A stretch of 64,000 nt of DNA. Source: Stenotrophomonas sp. 364. GTDB taxonomy: Bacteria > Pseudomonadota > Gammaproteobacteria > Xanthomonadales > Xanthomonadaceae. Below, one piece after another: positions 3,738 through 29,206 of this stretch (its first letter is position 1; the number at the start of each line of letters is the position of its first letter). Location: contig NZ_CP047135.1 in assembly GCF_009832905.1 (NCBI RefSeq), positions 2,954,001-3,018,000 of the forward strand, read 5' to 3'. Both the position numbers and the translations under genes were made by a program. The notes under the pieces are model-generated. The model worked only from the letters and a program-made list of their open reading frames with translations, ran no database searches and had not been told where the DNA came from.

Positions 3738-4511
3738 GTGAGCGCGCGGCCGTTGCAGGACCGTGCGGTGCTGTTGTTCATCGCGCTGTCGGCGTTCTTC
3801 TGCGCCAATGCGGTGCTGGCCGAACTGATCGGGGTGAAGATCTTCGCGCTCGAAGACACGCTCGGGCTGGCGCCGTTCAACTGGAATCTGTTCGGCCAGA
3901 CCGGCTCGCTCAGTTTCACCGCCGGCACGCTGTTGTGGCCGGTGGTGTTCATCATGACCGACACCATCAACGAGTTCTTCGGCCGCCGCGGGGTGAAGTT
4001 CATCTCGTGGCTGGCGGTGGTGTTGATCAGCTACGGCTTCGTGTTCGCCTTCGCGGCGATTTCGCTGGTGCCGGCCAGCTGGTGGGTCACCTCGATGAGC
4101 GCCCACGGCGTGCCCGATTACCAGGCCGCCTTCGCCGCGGTGTTCGGCCAGGGCATGTGGACCATTGCCGGTTCGCTGGTGGCCTTCCTGGTCGGGCAGC
4201 TGATCGATGTCTCGATCTTCCATCGCATCCGCCGGGCCACCGGTGAACGCCACGTCTGGTTGCGCGCCACGGGCTCCACGGCGGTATCGCAGCTGGTGGA
4301 CAGCTTCGTGGTGATCTGGATCGCGTTCGTGCTGGGCCCGCAGCAGTGGCCCACCGCGCTGTTCCTGGCGGTCAGCAGCGTCAACTACGTCTACAAGATG
4401 GGCTTCGCCATCGCCCTGATTCCCTTGCTGTACCTGATGCGGCGCGCCATCACCCGCTACCTGGGCGCCGAACGCGCCGCGCAGCTGCGTGCCGACGCTG
4501 CAGCTGACTGA
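3738..4511 (+). CDS. yhhQ: Queuosine precursor transporter (VUT/DUF165 family)
   Basis: A 257-residue integral membrane protein with about six hydrophobic segments. The family (YhhQ/QueT-like, DUF165) imports queuosine precursors such as preQ0 and preQ1 for tRNA modification. Family-typical stretches are LAELIGVKIF near residue 27, MTDTINEFFGRRG around residue 73 and GQLIDVSIFHRIRR around residue 155. A GTG start at 3738 is used, one base after the stop of the DUF502 gene and preceded by GAGG. A longer frame begins inside the upstream gene and would add a non-homologous head. A hairpin lies just downstream. Confidence 0.88.
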   Translation: MSARPLQDRAVLLFIALSAFFCANAVLAELIGVKIFALEDTLGLAPFNWNLFGQTGSLSFTAGTLLWPVVFIMTDTINEFFGRRGVKFISWLAVVLISYGFVFAFAAISLVPASWWVTSMSAHGVPDYQAAFAAVFGQGMWTIAGSLVAFLVGQLIDVSIFHRIRRATGERHVWLRATGSTAVSQLVDSFVVIWIAFVLGPQQWPTALFLAVSSVNYVYKMGFAIALIPLLYLMRRAITRYLGAERAAQLRADAAAD

Positions 4512-4607: not shown

Positions 4608-6533
4608 ATGCCCCATCCCGCCCGCGCCCTGGCGCTCGCCATCGCCGCCCTGCTGCTGTTCGGCAGCGCCGCCCCGGCTGAAGCTGCCAAGAAGAAGGCC
4701 AACCGGCCGGCTGCCGCGCAGACCCGCTCCGCCGCCAAGCCCAAGGCCAAGCCGCGCGCACGTCCGGCCGCCGCGCCCGCGCGCCAGCCACTGGTCCGCC
4801 AGCAGAGCAAGGCCGCCCAGCTCAACCGCATCTACGACGAATACTGGGATGCCTCGATGCGGCTCAACCCGCTGCAGGCCACCTTCCAGGGCGATGCACG
4901 CCACAACGACCAGCTGCCCAACATCCTGTCGGCCGCCTACCGCCAGCAATCGCATGATTTCACCGTGGAATGGCTGGGCAAGGTCGAGAAGATCGGCACC
5001 GACGGCCTGACCGGGCAGGACCTGCTCAGCTACGAAATCTTCGTGCGCGACGCGCGCATGTCGCTGGCCGCCGAGAAGTACCCCAGCTGGATGCTGCCGG
5101 TCAGCCAGTACTACAACCTGGGCAGCATCATGGCCATCCTGGGCTCCGGCTCGGGCGCGCAGCCGTTCAATACCGTGGCCGACTACGACAGCTGGTCCAG
5201 GCGCTCGCTGGGGATCGCACCGCTGTTCGACCAGGCCGTGGCCAACATGCGCGACGGCATGAAGGCCGGCGTGGTGCAGCCGCGCGACCTGATGGAAAAG
5301 GTGCTGCCGCAGCTGGATGCGGTGATCAAGCCGACCGCCGAGGAGAGCATCTTCTGGGCCCCGGTACGCAACATGCCCGAGGACTTCCCGGCGGCGGACA
5401 AGGCGCGCATCAGCGCCGAGTACAAGCGCATGATCGAGTACCGCATCATGCCGGCCTACCGCGCCCTGCGCGGCTTCATCGCCACCGAATACCTGCCGGC
5501 CACGCGCACCAGCGATGGCCTGGGTGCGCTGCCCAACGGCCAGGCCTGGTACACCCAGAACATCGTGCAGAGCACCGCCGCCACCCTGGATGCCAAGCAG
5601 ATCCACGCCGTCGCCGAACAACGCGTAGCCAGCCTGCAGGCGCAGATCGCCGCGACGCTCAAGGACAACAAGATCCGCGGTTCGCAGCAGAAGGTGCTGC
5701 GCAACATGCGCACCGACCGCAGCTTCCAGTACGCCAACAGCGAGGCGTTGCTGACCCGCTACAAGCAGTTGCAGGCCCAGGTGGGCAGCCGCCTGCCCGC
5801 CCTGCTGGGCACCCTGCCGAAGGCGCCGCTGGAGGTCCGTGCGGTTGAACCCGAACGTGCCGCAAGTGCGTCGGCGGTGGCCTACCAGCCGCCCCTGCCC
5901 GACGGCATGCGTCCGGGCATCCTGTACGTCAACACCACCAACCTGCCGAGCCGCCGCCGCTGGGCGGCGCCGATGCAGTTCCTGCATGAAGGCATTCCCG
6001 GCCACCACGTGCAGCTGGGACTGCAGCAGGAGCTGGACAAGCTGCCGCGCTTCCGCCGGCTGGGCGGCGATATCGCCTTCATCGAAGGCTGGGGCCTGTA
6101 TGCCGAATCGGTGGGTGAGCAGCTGGGCGTGTACCAGGACCCCTACGAGCGCATCGGCTACCTGCAGGCCGCGCTGACCCGCGCCGCCCGCATGGCCGCC
6201 GACACCGGCGTGCATGCGCAGGGCTGGAGCAAGCGCCAGGCGGTGGATTACCTGGTCAAGACCGCCGACATGCCCACCGAAGATGCCACCGCCGAAGTCG
6301 AGCGTTTCATGGCCCTGCCCGGGCAGACCCTGCCCAACGGCCTGGGCGAACTGAAGATGGTGGAACTGCGCGATCGCGCCAAGGCCGCGCTCGGCCCGCG
6401 CTTCGACCTGCGCCGTTTCCATGAGGAAATCCTGCGCGACGGCTCGATGCCGCTGGACATCCTCGACGCCAAGATGACCCGCTGGATCGCGGCCGAAACC
6501 GCCGGCACGCCGACGCCCGCAGCGACCCCCTGA
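4608..6533 (+). CDS. DUF885 family metallopeptidase-like secreted protein
   Basis: A 641-residue protein with a signal peptide ending near residue 26 (GSAAPAEA), then a basic, alanine- and lysine-rich linker, then the long helical DUF885 domain. The family signature HEGIPGHH is at about residues 460-467. Its HExxxHH-like arrangement, plus a downstream EGWGLYAES glutamate motif, resembles zinc peptidases, and the family is usually annotated as putative carboxypeptidases. The substrate is unknown. The start is the first ATG with a good signal peptide. Twenty bases separate it from the next gene, suggesting cotranscription. Confidence 0.87.
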   Translation: MPHPARALALAIAALLLFGSAAPAEAAKKKANRPAAAQTRSAAKPKAKPRARPAAAPARQPLVRQQSKAAQLNRIYDEYWDASMRLNPLQATFQGDARHNDQLPNILSAAYRQQSHDFTVEWLGKVEKIGTDGLTGQDLLSYEIFVRDARMSLAAEKYPSWMLPVSQYYNLGSIMAILGSGSGAQPFNTVADYDSWSRRSLGIAPLFDQAVANMRDGMKAGVVQPRDLMEKVLPQLDAVIKPTAEESIFWAPVRNMPEDFPAADKARISAEYKRMIEYRIMPAYRALRGFIATEYLPATRTSDGLGALPNGQAWYTQNIVQSTAATLDAKQIHAVAEQRVASLQAQIAATLKDNKIRGSQQKVLRNMRTDRSFQYANSEALLTRYKQLQAQVGSRLPALLGTLPKAPLEVRAVEPERAASASAVAYQPPLPDGMRPGILYVNTTNLPSRRRWAAPMQFLHEGIPGHHVQLGLQQELDKLPRFRRLGGDIAFIEGWGLYAESVGEQLGVYQDPYERIGYLQAALTRAARMAADTGVHAQGWSKRQAVDYLVKTADMPTEDATAEVERFMALPGQTLPNGLGELKMVELRDRAKAALGPRFDLRRFHEEILRDGSMPLDILDAKMTRWIAAETAGTPTPAATP

Positions 6534-8589: not shown

Positions 8590-8631
8590 CTTCTCGGCGC
8601 TGCTTTTGGCTAGTCATTGCCATGGTGTGGT

Positions 8632-8735
8632 CGAGGCGGGTTAACCCCCACCGGGACACGCCGTGAACCCATCCATGGGGGCTCGTCCACGGCATCCATG
8701 CCGTGGACGGTCCCGGTGGGGGTTAACCCGCCTCG
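8632..8735. repeat. Composite palindromic element, type A, copy 1
   Basis: A perfect 26-base inverted repeat (8632-8657 with 8710-8735) encloses an asymmetric middle that starts ACACGCCGTGAA and a second perfect palindrome at 8685-8708 centred on CATCCATG. A second copy with different but still complementary arms is at 28941-29039 on the other strand. With the terminator at 8774, the next palindromic copy at 8971 and the array at 9099, it fills the 662-base gap between the DUF2147 gene and metG. Confidence 0.85.
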
Positions 8736-8773
8736 CCCTCCAGGCATGTGCATCGCCGGTTGGGAAGAGGAAG

Positions 8774-8806
8774 AAGGCCGAAGCGGCTGCGCCGCTTCGG
8801 CCTTTT
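8774..8806 (+). terminator. Rho-independent terminator
   Basis: A 14-base-pair stem (8774-8787 with 8791-8804) with a three-base loop runs straight into TTTT. It is GC-rich and perfect, so it is a strong candidate terminator for the DUF2147 transcript. Confidence 0.75.
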
Positions 8807-8970
8807 GCATTTCTACTCTCCCCCACACCCCGAACCAAACCGCTCTGGCTCGGGCTTCGGCAGGCAGAAGCTCCGGTCAGGTCGGTTCATTCGGCCCGGT
8901 TCGCTTCACCTAGGCTTCTGCCACCCGCTCCTGCCCCCGCCTTTCCCCTGCACACCAACCAACTGTGGAA

Positions 8971-9076
8971 GGGCTGGGGTGGGTGAGGTTGCGGGGCCCT
9001 CCACCGCATGGATGCGGTGGCGGAGCTTACACGGACGTACTTGCAGCGTGCCCCGCGGCCTCACCCACCCCAGCCC
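8971..9076. repeat. Composite palindromic element, type B, copy 1
   Basis: Outer arms 8971-8997 and 9050-9076 pair at 25 of 27 positions. Inside is a 20-base palindrome at 9001-9020 with core GCATGGATGC, then GCGGAGCTTACACGG and GCAGCGTGCC, which recur in the copies at 22244 and 22742. CCAACTGTGG precedes the left arm. The hexamer array begins 23 bases after the right arm. Confidence 0.85.
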
Positions 9077-9098
9077 TCCCCCAGCAGGCCGGTCAATG

Positions 9099-9176
9099 GG
9101 CTTCGGCTGTGGCTGTGGCTGTGGCTGTGGCCCTGGCTCCGGCTCCGGCTCCGGCTCCGGCCTTGGCTCCGGCTTC
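9099..9176. repeat. Hexanucleotide array (GGCTNN)13
   Basis: Thirteen hexamers in perfect phase. Eleven fit GGCTNN: four GGCTGT, five GGCTCC and two GGCTTC. The other two are GGCCCT and GGCCTT. A nine-base A run follows at 9178-9186. The array ends about 75 bases before the metG start, close to where its promoter must lie. A GATAAT box at 9217-9222 is a possible metG -10 element, but no convincing -35 was seen. Confidence 0.85.
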
Positions 9177-9251
9177 GAAAAAAAAAGCCCGCCGCAGGCG
9201 CACACCCCCTCCATGCGATAATCCCCGGTCCCCAAGGCAACAACGCAGACC

Positions 9252-12002: not shown

Positions 12003-12428
12003 ATGCCCAGCACCTCCGCCAGTTTGATCGAACGCCTCGACCGCCTGTTGCCGCAGACCCAATGCGGCCAGTGCGGCTATGACGGCTGCTACCCGTACGC
12101 GCAGGCCATGGCCCGTGGCGAGGCCGGCGTCGACCACTGCCCACCGGGCGGCGACGACGGTGCCCGTGCGCTGGCCCATGTGCTGGGCGTACCGGCGGTG
12201 CCGTTCGACCGCAGCCGCGGCGCGCACAAACCCGCACAGGTCGCGCTGATCATCGAAGCCGACTGCATCGGCTGCACCAAATGCATCCAGGCCTGCCCGG
12301 TGGACGCCATCGTGGGCGGTGCCAAGTACATGCACACCGTCCTGCCCGACCTGTGCACCGGTTGCGAGCTGTGCATTCCCCCGTGCCCGGTGGATTGCAT
12401 CGAATTGATCGCAGCACCCGCCCGGTAA
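12003..12428 (+). CDS. RnfB-type ferredoxin, without other rnf genes
   Basis: A 141-residue iron-sulfur protein. Residues about 15-50 form the RnfB 4Fe-4S domain, with cysteines at 21, 24 and 29 and another near 46. Two bacterial ferredoxin motifs follow ([12 protein letters not shown] and [12 protein letters not shown]). The N-terminal membrane helix of true RnfB is absent, and no rnfACDGE genes are nearby, so this is a soluble electron carrier rather than a Rnf pump subunit. Xanthomonads keep such a lone gene near metG. Its last codons are the first unit of a tandem repeat that continues past the stop. Confidence 0.88.
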
Positions 12429-12530
12429 CGCCGGACGTTGATCGCGGCACCCGTCCCGCAACGCCGGACCTTGATCGCGGCCACGCCCCGTAACCCGGAC
12501 GTTGATCGCAGCACACGCCCGTAGCGCCGG
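12405..12530. repeat. Four tandem degenerate units of 29-33 bases overlapping a gene end
   Basis: Units start at 12405, 12438, 12471 and 12502, each with TTGATCGCRGC followed by a CCGTAACGCCGGACG-like part. The first unit is the coding end of the RnfB-like gene, including its TAA stop. The fourth merges into a GTAG stem-loop. The array looks like copying of the gene end or of a GTAR-type stem-loop half. Confidence 0.8.
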
Positions 12531-22177: not shown

Positions 22178-22225
22178 AGCTGGGTCAAGAGCTGGATCAA
22201 GAGCTGGATCAAGAGCTGGGTTGAT
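22178..22225. repeat. Tandem 12-base repeat directly after yegD
   Basis: Four units of AGCTGGRTCAAG (last one AGCTGGGTTGAT) in perfect phase start at the base after the yegD stop. Each unit is two hexamers. The array lies 19 bases from the outer arm of the palindromic element at 22244. Confidence 0.85.
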
Positions 22226-22243
22226 GGTCTTCCGGTTTGGGTC

Positions 22244-22339
22244 GGGGTGGGTGAGGCCGCGGGGCACGCTGCAAGTACTTCCGTGTAAGCTCCGCCACCG
22301 CATCCATGCGGTGGAGGGCCCCGCAACCTCACCCACCCC
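22244..22339. repeat. Composite palindromic element, type B, copy 2 (inverted)
   Basis: Outer arms 22244-22265 and 22318-22339 pair at 20 of 22 positions. The inner 20-base palindrome at 22295-22314 is the same as in the copy at 8971 but on the opposite strand. GACAGTTGG follows the right arm, the mirror of CCAACTGT seen beside other copies. Confidence 0.85.
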
Positions 22340-22428
22340 GCCCCCCGACAGTTGGCCGGTGCGCATGCAAAAAGCACCGCAGCTTTTTTTTGGGGGGAGG
22401 ATGCCGAGCGGAGCTCGGCACTTTCGAA

Positions 22429-22548
22429 GCAACTGCAACGGCCACTGCAACGGCCACTGCAACAGCAACAGCAACAGCAACAGCAAATGCCACTGCAAAG
22501 GCCGAAGCAACGGCGAAAGCAGCAGCCAAGGCAGCAGCTACAGGCGCT
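22429..22548. repeat. Degenerate hexamer array (GCNNNN)n
   Basis: About 20 hexamers in phase, beginning GCAACT GCAACG GCCACT and including four GCAACA in a row. GC at positions 1-2 is almost fixed, while positions 3 and 6 vary most. A T8G6 run (22384-22397) and a perfect small hairpin TGCCGAGC-GGA-GCTCGGCA (22402-22420) lie just before it. Confidence 0.8.
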
Positions 22549-22608: not shown

Positions 22609-22641
22609 AAGCCGCAGCCGCAGCCGCAGCCGCAGCCTCAG
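22609..22641. repeat. Short hexamer array (GCCGCA)4
   Basis: Four GCCGCA units from 22611, then GCCTCA. It is preceded by a looser CCACAT-like six-base periodicity from about 22571. Confidence 0.75.
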
Positions 22642-22741
22642 ACAGTGCTGCCGACCAATCCGCGTGCCCGGCCCGCCGGCCAAACCGGCTTGTCTGCCGT
22701 TGCTCCGGCTATTCCCTTGCGCACCGACCCTTTGTGCAGGT

Positions 22742-22824
22742 GCGTCGCGTGTGGGTTGGCGGTGGCGGTGGCGGAGCTTACATGCACGCACTTGCAGCGT
22801 GCCCTGCCAACCCACACACGACGC
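22742..22824. repeat. Composite palindromic element, type B, copy 3 (eroded)
   Basis: Outer arms GCGTCGCGTGTGGGTTGGC (22742-22760) and its complement at 22806-22824 match at 18 of 19 positions. The middle keeps GGCGGAGCTTACATG and TTGCAGCGTGCC of the copy at 8971. The inner palindrome has lost its CATCCATG core. Confidence 0.8.
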
Positions 22825-22861
22825 GCCCGCCCCACCCAGGACAACGCAGCCCAAGGTTTTC

Positions 22862-27811: not shown

Positions 27812-28309
27812 ATGACCGCCCTGAAGTACCTCGCCGGTTACCCCGAAGCCCTGCAGCAGCAGGTGCGCGAGCTGATCGCGGGCGACCGCCTGGGGCCCTG
27901 GCTGGAACGGCGCTACGCGGAACTGCATACGGTGCGCAACGATCGGCAGCTGTACGACTACACGCAGGGGCTGAAGGAGCGCTATCTGCGGCAGTCGGCG
28001 CCGCTGTCGAAAGTGGTCTATGACAGCAAGCTGCAGGTGCTGAAGCACGCGCTGGGCACGCACACGACGGTGTCGCGGGTGCAGGGCAGCCGGTTGAAGG
28101 CGAGCCGCGAGATCCGGATCGCGACGGTGTTCCGCGAGGCCCCGGCGCCGTTCCTGAAGATGATCGTGGTGCACGAGCTGGCCCACCTGAAGGAATCGGA
28201 CCACAACAAGGCCTTCTATCAGCTGTGCACGCACATGGAAGCGGATTACCACCAGCTGGAGTTCGATCTGCGCCTGTACCTGACCCATCTGGAACGCCCC
28301 ACCCGCTGA
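27812..28309 (+). CDS. YgjP-like zinc metallopeptidase-domain protein
   Basis: A 165-residue protein with the zinc motif HELAHLKESDH at about residues 117-127, the signature of the YgjP-like (WLM-related) family. Members are linked to DNA-protein or ubiquitin-like biology in other lineages, but no bacterial substrate is known. The ATG at 27812 is preferred to a frame that starts inside the divergent promoter region. Codons are strongly G-ending (GCG, ACG, TCG, CGG). Confidence 0.87.
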   Translation: MTALKYLAGYPEALQQQVRELIAGDRLGPWLERRYAELHTVRNDRQLYDYTQGLKERYLRQSAPLSKVVYDSKLQVLKHALGTHTTVSRVQGSRLKASREIRIATVFREAPAPFLKMIVVHELAHLKESDHNKAFYQLCTHMEADYHQLEFDLRLYLTHLERPTR

Positions 28310-28345
28310 CCCCTTCGCACGGCTGCGGGCCGCTGGCCGCCTGGC

Positions 28346-28397
28346 GTGCCGGCCGCTGGCCGGTGGGGCGCGGTAGTGCCGGCCGCTGGCCGGCTGC
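28346..28397. repeat. GTAG stem-loops after the YgjP gene
   Basis: GTAGTGCCGGCCGCTGGCCGGC starts at 28373 and is preceded by a second, less complete GTGCCGGCCGCTGGCCGG from about 28346. Both are SMAG-like. They open the 897-base gap without a gene between the YgjP gene and the S4 gene, which also holds two palindromic elements and three arrays. Confidence 0.78.
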
Positions 28398-28421
28398 TCG
28401 CAAAGCCAGAGCGAAGCTCAA

Positions 28422-28457
28422 GCAACTGCAACTGCAACTGCAACTGCAACGGCTTCT
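28422..28457. repeat. Hexamer array (GCAACT)4
   Basis: Four GCAACT units, then GCAACG and GCTTCT, in phase. It lies 24 bases from the outer arm of the palindromic element at 28481. Confidence 0.82.
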
Positions 28458-28480
28458 GGCGCAACGATCGCTGGATTGGG

Positions 28481-28664
28481 CGGGGGTGTGTGAGTTCGCG
28501 GGACACGCTGCAAGTCCCGCTCAGCGGCCCGGCCCAGCCGCTGGCGGCTGTGCGTTCGGACGCATGCGAGGAAGTGCCTCGCAAGCAATGCGCCCTCACC
28601 CATGTAAGCTCCGTCGCCGCATCCATGCGGCTCAGGGTCCCGCGAACCCACACACCCCCGCCCC
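28481..28664. repeat. Composite palindromic element, type B, copy 4 (inverted, with insertion)
   Basis: Outer arms 28481-28504 and 28637-28660 pair at 23 of 24 positions. GACACGCTGCAAGT and CATGTAAGCTCC match other copies but are split by about 80 extra bases containing their own hairpins. The inner palindrome GCCGCATCCATGCGGC is at 28616-28631. Confidence 0.82.
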
Positions 28665-28720
28665 AGACAGACTGCCGGTGGCCGATGAAGAGCTAGAAGC
28701 GGGGGCGAAAGCAGGAAAAA

Positions 28721-28804
28721 GCCAAGCCAGAGCCAGAGCCAGAGCCAAAGCTCAGAATTCGATTTCAATGTGAATTTGAATTCATATTAGAAATCAAATC
28801 CAAA
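28721..28804. repeat. Hexamer-period array passing from GC-rich to AT-rich units
   Basis: CCAGAG units (three in a row) and CCAAAG run in the same six-base phase into AT-rich units such as ATTTCA, ATTTGA, ATTCAT and ATTAGA. The AT-rich half, about 28756-28804, stands out sharply in this GC-rich genome. Confidence 0.75.
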
Positions 28805-28940
28805 AAACCAGATTCGGACCAGACATCAGCTTCGGCCTTCCGGCCGAGCACCAGCCACCAAGTCACCCGCCGGACCAAAAGCCGTCCGATCGCAGTTCGC
28901 CGTTGCCTCCCCCAAAGGCCACCAGCCAACTGTCGGGGCT

Positions 28941-29039
28941 GGGGGTGGGTGGGTTGGCGGGACCGTTGGGCGCCATGGATGGCGCCCACGAGCCTCCAGG
29001 GATGGATTCACGGCGTGTCCCGCCAACCCACCCGCCCCC
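28941..29039. repeat. Composite palindromic element, type A, copy 2 (inverted)
   Basis: Outer arms 28941-28963 and 29017-29039 pair at 22 of 23 positions. The inner palindrome is 28967-28988. Read on the minus strand it has the same GACACGCCGTGAAYCCATCC and GGCTCG blocks as the copy at 8632, while both sets of arms differ in sequence. CCAACTGTCGGGG precedes it. Confidence 0.85.
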
Positions 29040-29065
29040 GGCCAACCCAAGCCGCCCGGCCAACC

Positions 29066-29134
29066 GGCTGTGGCTCCGGCTGTGGCTTCGGCTGTTAGCT
29101 CCGGCTCCGGCTCTGGCTCCGGCCTCGGCTCAGC
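29066..29134. repeat. Hexamer array (GGCTNN)n
   Basis: GGCTGT, GGCTCC, GGCTGT, GGCTTC, GGCTGT, then a one-base phase slip and more GGCTCC-like units. It begins 27 bases after the palindromic element and ends about 70 bases before the next gene, the same order as upstream of metG. Confidence 0.82.
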
Positions 29135-29206
29135 CCCAGCAGGGCCCACCCACCCCGCACACCCAGTACACTCCCCGCCCGCATCCCGCTTTTCGTTGCC
29201 AGCCCC

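Follow-up and report, generated by a model that had tools for sequence, protein, structure and literature searches.

A multicopy, mobile-looking repeat of Stenotrophomonas with paired hairpins of predicted CsrA/RsmA type and likeness to TwoAYGGAY and YPAL/RU-2

TwoAYGGAY (RF01731) is an RNA that reportedly goes back to Weinberg in 2010. It has been proposed as a CsrA binder, with Clostridia in mind, and tandem G-A pairs in the stem are named among its features in the accessible text of PMC4333381. The high-affinity CsrA/RsmE site, in the part of PMC4005645 at hand, is a hexaloop ANGGAX that sits immediately on a stem and whose N may have any identity. The available portion of PMC7694677 describes RsmU, an RsmA-binding sRNA derived from a 3'-UTR, and states that no CsrB or RsmX/Y/Z homologue has been reported in sequenced Xanthomonas. 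The Yersinia repeat YPAL is presented as a mobile repeat (MITE) that shows empty sites and target duplications varying between 3 and 26 bp, and that might affect the stability of upstream transcripts (excerpt of PMC2229807), and its sequence, also called RU-2, is printed in PMC2759123, likewise available in part. Ysr224 (RF02770), a Yersinia sRNA entry, is temperature-responsive according to the accessible section of PMC9029176. REPs carry a GTAG- or CGTC-type end tag on stems of 5-13 bp (PMC3733652, in the part available).

We analyzed a 64-kb window of the 4.84-Mb single-contig genome of Stenotrophomonas sp. 364, for which the original prediction had described six palindromic elements confined to three gene-free islands. 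All six are present, with the strands and coordinates given below together with their associated parts; R1 denotes a model built from 23 family copies.

8590-9213, unstranded: whole island 1, absent at the orthologous site of G159, G165 and G168 (43-59 bp there) and of G184 (137 bp); site comparison.
8631-8736, minus strand: element copy 1, with outer stem, hairpin 1 loop AUGGAU and hairpin 2 CCC-AUGGAU-GGG; R1 94.2 bits, inverted repeat.
8943-8970, plus strand: conserved 5' flank of copy 2, containing CCAACTGTGG; flank information content, sequence.
8971-9076, plus strand: element copy 2, divergent partner of copy 1, with hairpin 2 UAC-ACGGAC-GUA; R1 119.4 bits.
9099-9174, plus strand: 3' hexanucleotide tail (GGCTNN)n, 23 bp past copy 2; TRF, array scan.
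22178-22219, minus strand: 3' array of copy 3, with the 12-base unit AGCTGGATCAAG on the plus strand; TRF.
22239-22344, minus strand: element copy 3; R1 115.4 bits.
22428-22514, minus strand: interior array (GTTGCN)n on the 5' side of copy 3; TRF, array scan.
22610-22641, minus strand: interior array (GCGGCT)n between copies 3 and 4, the single cluster lying on the strand opposite to its nearest element, on the 5' side; TRF, array scan.
22739-22827, plus strand: element copy 4, a degenerate copy that has lost hairpin 1 and has AUGCAC as its hairpin 2 loop; R1 56.0 bits.
28298-29159, unstranded: whole island 3, absent at the orthologous site of G159, G165, G168 and G184 (10-46 bp there); site comparison.
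28422-28450, minus strand: 3' tail of copy 5, (AGTTGC)n, 28 bp past the element; TRF, array scan.
28478-28663, minus strand: element copy 5, long, with an insert of ~80 nt replacing the hairpin 2 loop and hairpin 1 intact; inverted repeat, partial R1 match of 40.5 bits.
28720-28756, minus strand: interior array (CTGGCT)n on the 5' side of copy 5; TRF, array scan.
28909-28936, plus strand: conserved 5' flank of copy 6, containing GGCCACCAGCCAACTGTCGGG; sequence, flank information content.
28937-29043, plus strand: element copy 6, divergent partner of copy 5, with loops AUGGAU and AGGGAU; R1 102.5 bits.
29064-29131, plus strand: 3' tail of copy 6, (GGCTNN)n; TRF, array scan.

Several details of the original prediction carry over. 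The inner palindrome assigned to five copies, CATCCATG/CATGGATG, centers hairpin 1 in five of six (the exception is 22739), and the recurrent sequence noted on the side away from the array, CCAACTGTC, belongs to a 5' flank that is conserved over some 28 nt. The outer arms, put at 19-27 bases, are longer, with an inverted-repeat tool returning 25-44 nt at 82-97% complementarity. The 10-mer GCATCCATGC taken alone occurs 16 times in the window against 12.8 expected and so is not over-represented, which places the signal in the structure rather than in the 10-mer. Two other repeats in the window are recorded here in their own right: two short REP-type palindromes, GCCGGCCGCTGGCCGG, directly beside island 3 (28335-28405), which may resemble the SMAG/GTAG REPs of S. 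maltophilia, and a 33-base unit, TTGATCGCAGCACACGCCCCGTAACGCCGGACG, in about four tandem copies at 12405-12530, unrelated to the islands.

We find that these copies belong to a repeat family with at least 98 elements in the genome. A sequence pattern derived from one copy occurs at 23 places; 21 of these copies plus two from the window form alignment A2, the basis of R1, which omits pattern copies L002 and L013 and the long window copy 28478. R1 gives at least 109 matches in this genome, antisense shadows included, among the best 150 of 4668 candidates scored, and can miss long variants. Elements were then defined as the palindromes located in 60 stretches around R1 matches, plus L008 and the window; two of the 100 hits from the palindrome finder (599555 and 2956791) were judged false, and the resulting 98 is a lower bound, with the degenerate window copy 22739 outside the count. 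Elements measure about 106 or 186 bp between the outer stem ends: 72 have a short core and 26 a long one, the latter with an insert of ~80 nt in hairpin 1 (7 copies) or hairpin 2 (19 copies). No recent copies are seen among 36 element pairs of this genome, where the listed local unit-to-unit matches are only 60-87% alike.

Read on the strand that carries the GGA motifs, each element consists of a 5' flank of ~28 nt (GGCCACCGGCCAACTGTCGAGG), a 27-nt outer arm, hairpin 1, hairpin 2 with a 5-nt bulge on its 3' side, the second outer arm and, often, a tail. In the predicted fold, the 27-bp outer stem closes a three-way junction with the two hairpins, and this stem varies in sequence while its pairing is kept. 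Across the 23 copies of A2, 29 of 38 pairs change on both sides and 97.7% of cells are paired; none of 500 shuffles reaches the A2 value, and in slid versions pairing drops to about 40-47%. The palindrome of the original prediction is real, but the covarying three-way junction with CsrA-type loops had gone unnoticed.

What pairs as G-U on one strand becomes an A-C mismatch on its complement, and the balance of the two points to the strand that is likelier to fold. The finder used here scores Watson-Crick pairs only and orientation is taken from the loops, with three cores that have equal motif counts on both strands set aside. On the GGA strand, G-U and A-C cells number 35:4 in 73 elements of Stenotrophomonas sp. 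364 and 312:28 in 183 elements drawn from the listed core-pattern loci (119 of 120 used, L144 left out), or 182:21 in the 114 elements that remain once 69 with repeated arms are removed; two further sets give 42:8 in 37 elements and 37:2 in 39. Elements showing one kind alone are divided 25:3, 125:2, 14:0 and 16:1 in the four sets. A count of 90:7 was set aside as evidence because its finder accepted G-U. Since G-U outnumbers A-C on the GGA strand, this is most likely the strand that folds. The simplest reading is that the folded molecule is RNA; single-stranded DNA tolerates G-T wobble, so the strand bias is compatible with a DNA hairpin as well.

In short copies, both hairpins nearly always end in a hexaloop A-N-GGA-X on a C-G pair. 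Two CANGGANG motifs are present in 69 of the 72 short copies of this genome and one in the other three, and the motif-to-motif spacing is 23 nt in 68 of the 69. The A and the GGA of hairpin 2 are constant and its N takes any base (G28 C17 A13 T11), while hairpin 1 has T at this position in all copies but one (T68 C1). The finders behind the 98-element set and the strand counts demanded some GGA motif, a demand from which hairpin 1 is free in copies picked by hairpin 2; among the matches listed for that search, there are 130 distinct copies, with many Xanthomonas copies among them; 113 form hairpin 1 as ANGGAX on at least four pairs, with N as T98 G11 A3 C1, and 17 do not fit. One of the two loops is lost in the 26 long copies, 25 of which retain one CANGGANG and one none. 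Minimum-free-energy folds of the 72 short copies leave the GG unpaired in both loops in 39, in one loop in 31 and in neither in 2. The hairpin shape looks like the published high-affinity CsrA/RsmA site, which predicts binding, and the genome has one CsrA-family gene that we could find.

TRF returns seven period-6 rows in the window (9105, 9135, 22428, 22610, 28422, 28720 and 29064), all seven within the three islands. A genome-wide scan for arrays of the (GTTGCN)4 and (GGCTNN)5 types yields 31 hand-merged clusters, of which 29 lie within 400 bp of an element, in neighborhoods amounting to about 1.9% of the genome at most. The prediction that the array has a fixed side and strand relative to the palindrome was run genome-wide and bears out in 24 of 31 clusters, which stand 22-92 bp from the element, 3' of it and on its strand; four are on the 5' side of the same strand, one is on the 5' side of the opposite strand, and two have no element inside 400 bp. 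The tail starts mostly 22-43 nt past the outer arm. A strong period-6 array stands on the 3' side of 32 of 98 elements and on the 5' side of 12, compared with strong 3' arrays in 0-3 of 98 at periods 4, 5, 7, 8 and 9. As 66 of 98 copies lack a strong 3' array, the tail is frequent and not obligatory.

Close copies in this genome form strictly divergent pairs. All 36 close pairs among the 98 elements are divergent, 82-382 bp apart, so that 72 elements are paired and 26 single; the original prediction had recognized copies on opposite strands and missed this strict divergence. Under a looser pairing in relatives' loci, 72 pairs are divergent, 21 convergent and 12 tandem. By gene calls made crudely from codon-position GC, the genes around the 36 pairs run in the same direction in 21 cases, converge in 10 and diverge in 5, and from this mixture we attribute the pairing to the element itself. 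Inspected by eye, the 26 single elements have no evident orientation to genes, several of them having one neighbor that was not called. An origin of the pair by inverted duplication was rejected, partner arms being no more alike (0.633) than random (shuffled mean 0.653).

Two of the three window islands were compared with relatives, and both are absent from G159, G165, G168 and G184, the four related genomes examined in detail, which hold 10-137 bp where this genome has about 620-860 bp. Together with the fixed side, strand and distance of the array, the absence of two whole islands in four relatives upholds the earlier view of palindrome and array as one unit, although the intergenic sequence at the empty sites is too diverged for exact junctions or target duplications to be read. 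No R1 element occurs at the island-1 or island-3 site in the 29 relatives' loci searched for each; near island 1, 8 of 29 loci hold a copy close to the other end of the adjoining gene, off the island site, and at the island-3 site G150, G164 and G169 have 0.7-1.1 kb of other sequence without an R1 match.

R1 matches 39 of 149 genomes of the family, in 16 of 54 genera. Within the genus, presence is nearly all-or-none, with at least 15 matches in 29 of 41 genomes and 0 or 1 in the other 12, and the 41 genomes total at least about 2,100 R1 matches, counting no more than 96 per genome and with antisense shadows included. Among the matches listed for the core pattern are Xanthomonas, Stenotrophomonas, Halopseudomonas, Pseudomonas, Shewanella, Oceanisphaera, Marinobacter, Alloalcanivorax, Samsonia, Pectobacterium, Thiopseudomonas and others. 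Searches of plasmids with one copy and of phages with another return no match at E up to 1e-5, and the core pattern is present in one viral contig.

Some individual loci are worth recording. G082 (L325-L336) has twelve copies of a near-identical element, each with a divergent partner of a different subtype in its vicinity; on the 3' side, tandem repetition of the element's right half blurs its ends, and from its sequence this element looks recently active. In L149 (Halopseudomonas pelagia), a minus-strand left half is seemingly fused to a plus-strand right half, giving a long palindrome with a reversed loop. A group II intron at L179:3970-4960 (Shewanella gelidimarina), recognized by RF02012 and RF00029 matches at 4195-4324 and 4877-4953, adjoins an element copy at about 4000-4090 and the repeat may have served it as a landing site. 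The core pattern in L254, a record of Bacillus subtilis strain SK7B5, is possibly contamination. L145:437-512 matches Rfam sX9 (a Xanthomonas sRNA) with 100 bits, separate from the element copies of that locus.

With confidence evenly balanced, we propose that this mobile-looking multicopy repeat of the TwoAYGGAY/YPAL (RU-2) group works as a one-strand RNA with two CsrA/RsmA-type hairpins, predicted to bind RsmA. A long, freely varying outer stem would present the two hairpins with their GGAs 23 nt apart, and transcripts crossing a copy would bind RsmA dimers, which could shield the transcript; about a hundred copies could together serve as an RsmA decoy dispersed over the genome. Copies would retain the structure as a requirement of their own persistence or spread, not for the sake of a neighboring gene. 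Points against the CsrA reading include the strand of Ysr224, the lost loop of long copies, the T bias of hairpin 1, and the GG that is paired in some folds. A wider proposal, that TwoAYGGAY, YPAL/RU-2 and the Xanthomonad repeats make up a single mobile family of Gammaproteobacteria that spreads by way of CsrA/RsmA-bound RNA and whose ~100+ Xanthomonad copies set the level of free RsmA, strikes us as unlikely.

The foremost competitor is a MITE acting at the DNA level with REPIN-like logic, in which a single-stranded DNA hairpin is recognized by a transposase acting in trans and the loop is its recognition site. Dispersed copies, islands absent in relatives, mixed orientation to genes with every close pair divergent, patchy presence in family and genus, the description of YPAL as a MITE in the accessible text of PMC2229807, and the tolerance of single-stranded DNA for G-T would all suit it. 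What counts against it is that the loops agree with the CsrA consensus, down to the unconstrained N of hairpin 2, and that the G-U excess is strong in four sets; nor does a pair whose arms are no more alike than random look like an inverted duplicate. We regard this reading as possible, if somewhat unlikely. A SINE-like retroposon, copied through an RNA intermediate with the hexamer array as its 3' tail, would fit the strand bias, the strand-fixed short tandem tail on the 3' side and the variable target duplications given for YPAL in that same partial source, and is nonetheless very improbable: RVT_1 has no match in the Stenotrophomonas sp. 364 genome and occurs in 6 of 29 element-rich against 3 of 12 element-poor genomes of the genus, so that a resident reverse transcriptase is not a likely mover, and the tail units vary, with 5 of 31 array clusters on the 5' side.

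Two further readings were weighed. A structure useful to the host at gene 3' ends, for RNA processing, stabilization or termination and with no special CsrA role, draws on the intergenic placement of the copies and on the suggestion, in the available part of PMC2229807, of an influence of YPAL on upstream transcripts; genes around the pairs are mixed in direction, singletons are without clear orientation, and the flank profile has no consistent U tract after the stem, all of which make it quite improbable. In its narrower form, a host-selected 3'-UTR element, we find no sign of such a role, as orientation to neighboring genes looks random by our crude gene calls, and for lack of orientation bias it was rejected. 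A chance sharing of gene-free islands by palindromes and arrays, as independent and ordinary intergenic repeats, could account for the 66 copies without a strong 3' array, but is hardly credible for this genome, where 29 of 31 clusters have an element no more than 400 bp away and 24 agree in side and strand at 22-92 bp.

Should the RNA bind RsmA, as the CsrA/RsmA reading predicts, a mobile repeat would load a genome-wide regulator, and its copy number, nearly all-or-none between species, would be a testable knob on RsmA. On the wider, unlikely proposal, the missing report of an RsmX/Y/Z or CsrB homologue in Xanthomonas, as far as the text of PMC7694677 is available, with RsmU the one RsmA-binding sRNA that it describes, offers a setting in which ~100+ copies could tune RsmA. 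The genus also provides a natural library of CsrA-type hairpins, with at least about 2,100 R1 matches, antisense shadows counted, across its 41 genomes searched.

The original prediction knew of no named element with this architecture, a statement that fails, as the repeat is related to TwoAYGGAY (RF01731) and to Yersinia YPAL/RU-2 and Ysr224 (RF02770). At cut-off, Rfam has no match in the window; permissive scans of two window stretches give chance microRNA matches and a weak Ysr224, and RF01731, missing from the permissive lists (E up to 5 and up to 10), surfaced by targeted search alone. The likeness to TwoAYGGAY comprises the outer stem, the two hairpins and the AYGGAY-type loops, on the same strand. 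The RF01731 model aligns end to end with a copy from S. maltophilia D457 at 40.5 bits, its best score; in Stenotrophomonas sp. 364 the best is 32.1 bits, and all four matches fall on listed elements and their strand, two of them with E above 0.1. The 43-bit cut-off is reached in none of six genomes searched, one of which has no match at all. Among fetched loci, all seven with RF01731 at E up to 0.012 hold an R1 element at the same place and strand, as against none of three with E above 2. The present elements differ in their long GC-rich external stem, high copy number, pairing, hexamer tail and a hairpin 2 loop that takes any base at N. By eye in the alignment, GA stands opposite GA below hairpin 1 in one subtype only.

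The RU-2 core, as printed in the available part of PMC2759123, aligns with a Stenotrophomonas sp. 364 copy over about 55 nt that include both ANGGAX hairpins, and scores for the 72 short cores (best 36, mean 27.1) stand well apart from those of 72 shuffled cores (best 13, mean 8.8). RU-2 is a single unit of 167-168 bp, whereas the elements here measure about 106 or 186 bp and 72 of 98 form divergent pairs; the accessible text describes no divergent pairs, hexamer tail or CsrA link, and our literature search, whose coverage leaves out most subscription journals, found no paper linking YPAL or RU-2 with CsrA. Ysr224 scores over its cut-off in one Pectobacterium copy (91.3 bits) and one Samsonia copy of 18 loci scanned, and gives 23.6, 23.4 and 24.4 bits, below the cut-off of 70, in the scanned window stretches; Rfam draws it on the strand opposite to the GGA strand of the present elements. 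Like the REP/REPIN sequences (SMAG) of S. maltophilia, the elements are high-copy intergenic palindromes, often in inverted pairs, but SMAG/GTAG REP identity was rejected on the 27-bp stems, the branched core and a flank profile without the tag.

CsrA-binding RNAs place the ANGGAX hexaloop directly on the stem, a feature that the present elements have, and CsrB, RsmX, RsmY, RsmZ and RsmU bind CsrA/RsmA through GGA motifs, as the GGA motifs here are predicted to do; those are sRNAs, whereas the present element is a dispersed repeat. Judged by sequence and fold, this kind of element is already known, as a member of the TwoAYGGAY/YPAL (RU-2) group. What is new, as far as our searches show, is a large Xanthomonad branch with strict pairing and a tail, and the link that joins entries kept apart in the sources searched: TwoAYGGAY with its unproven role, YPAL/RU-2, Ysr224 and an unnamed Xanthomonad repeat.
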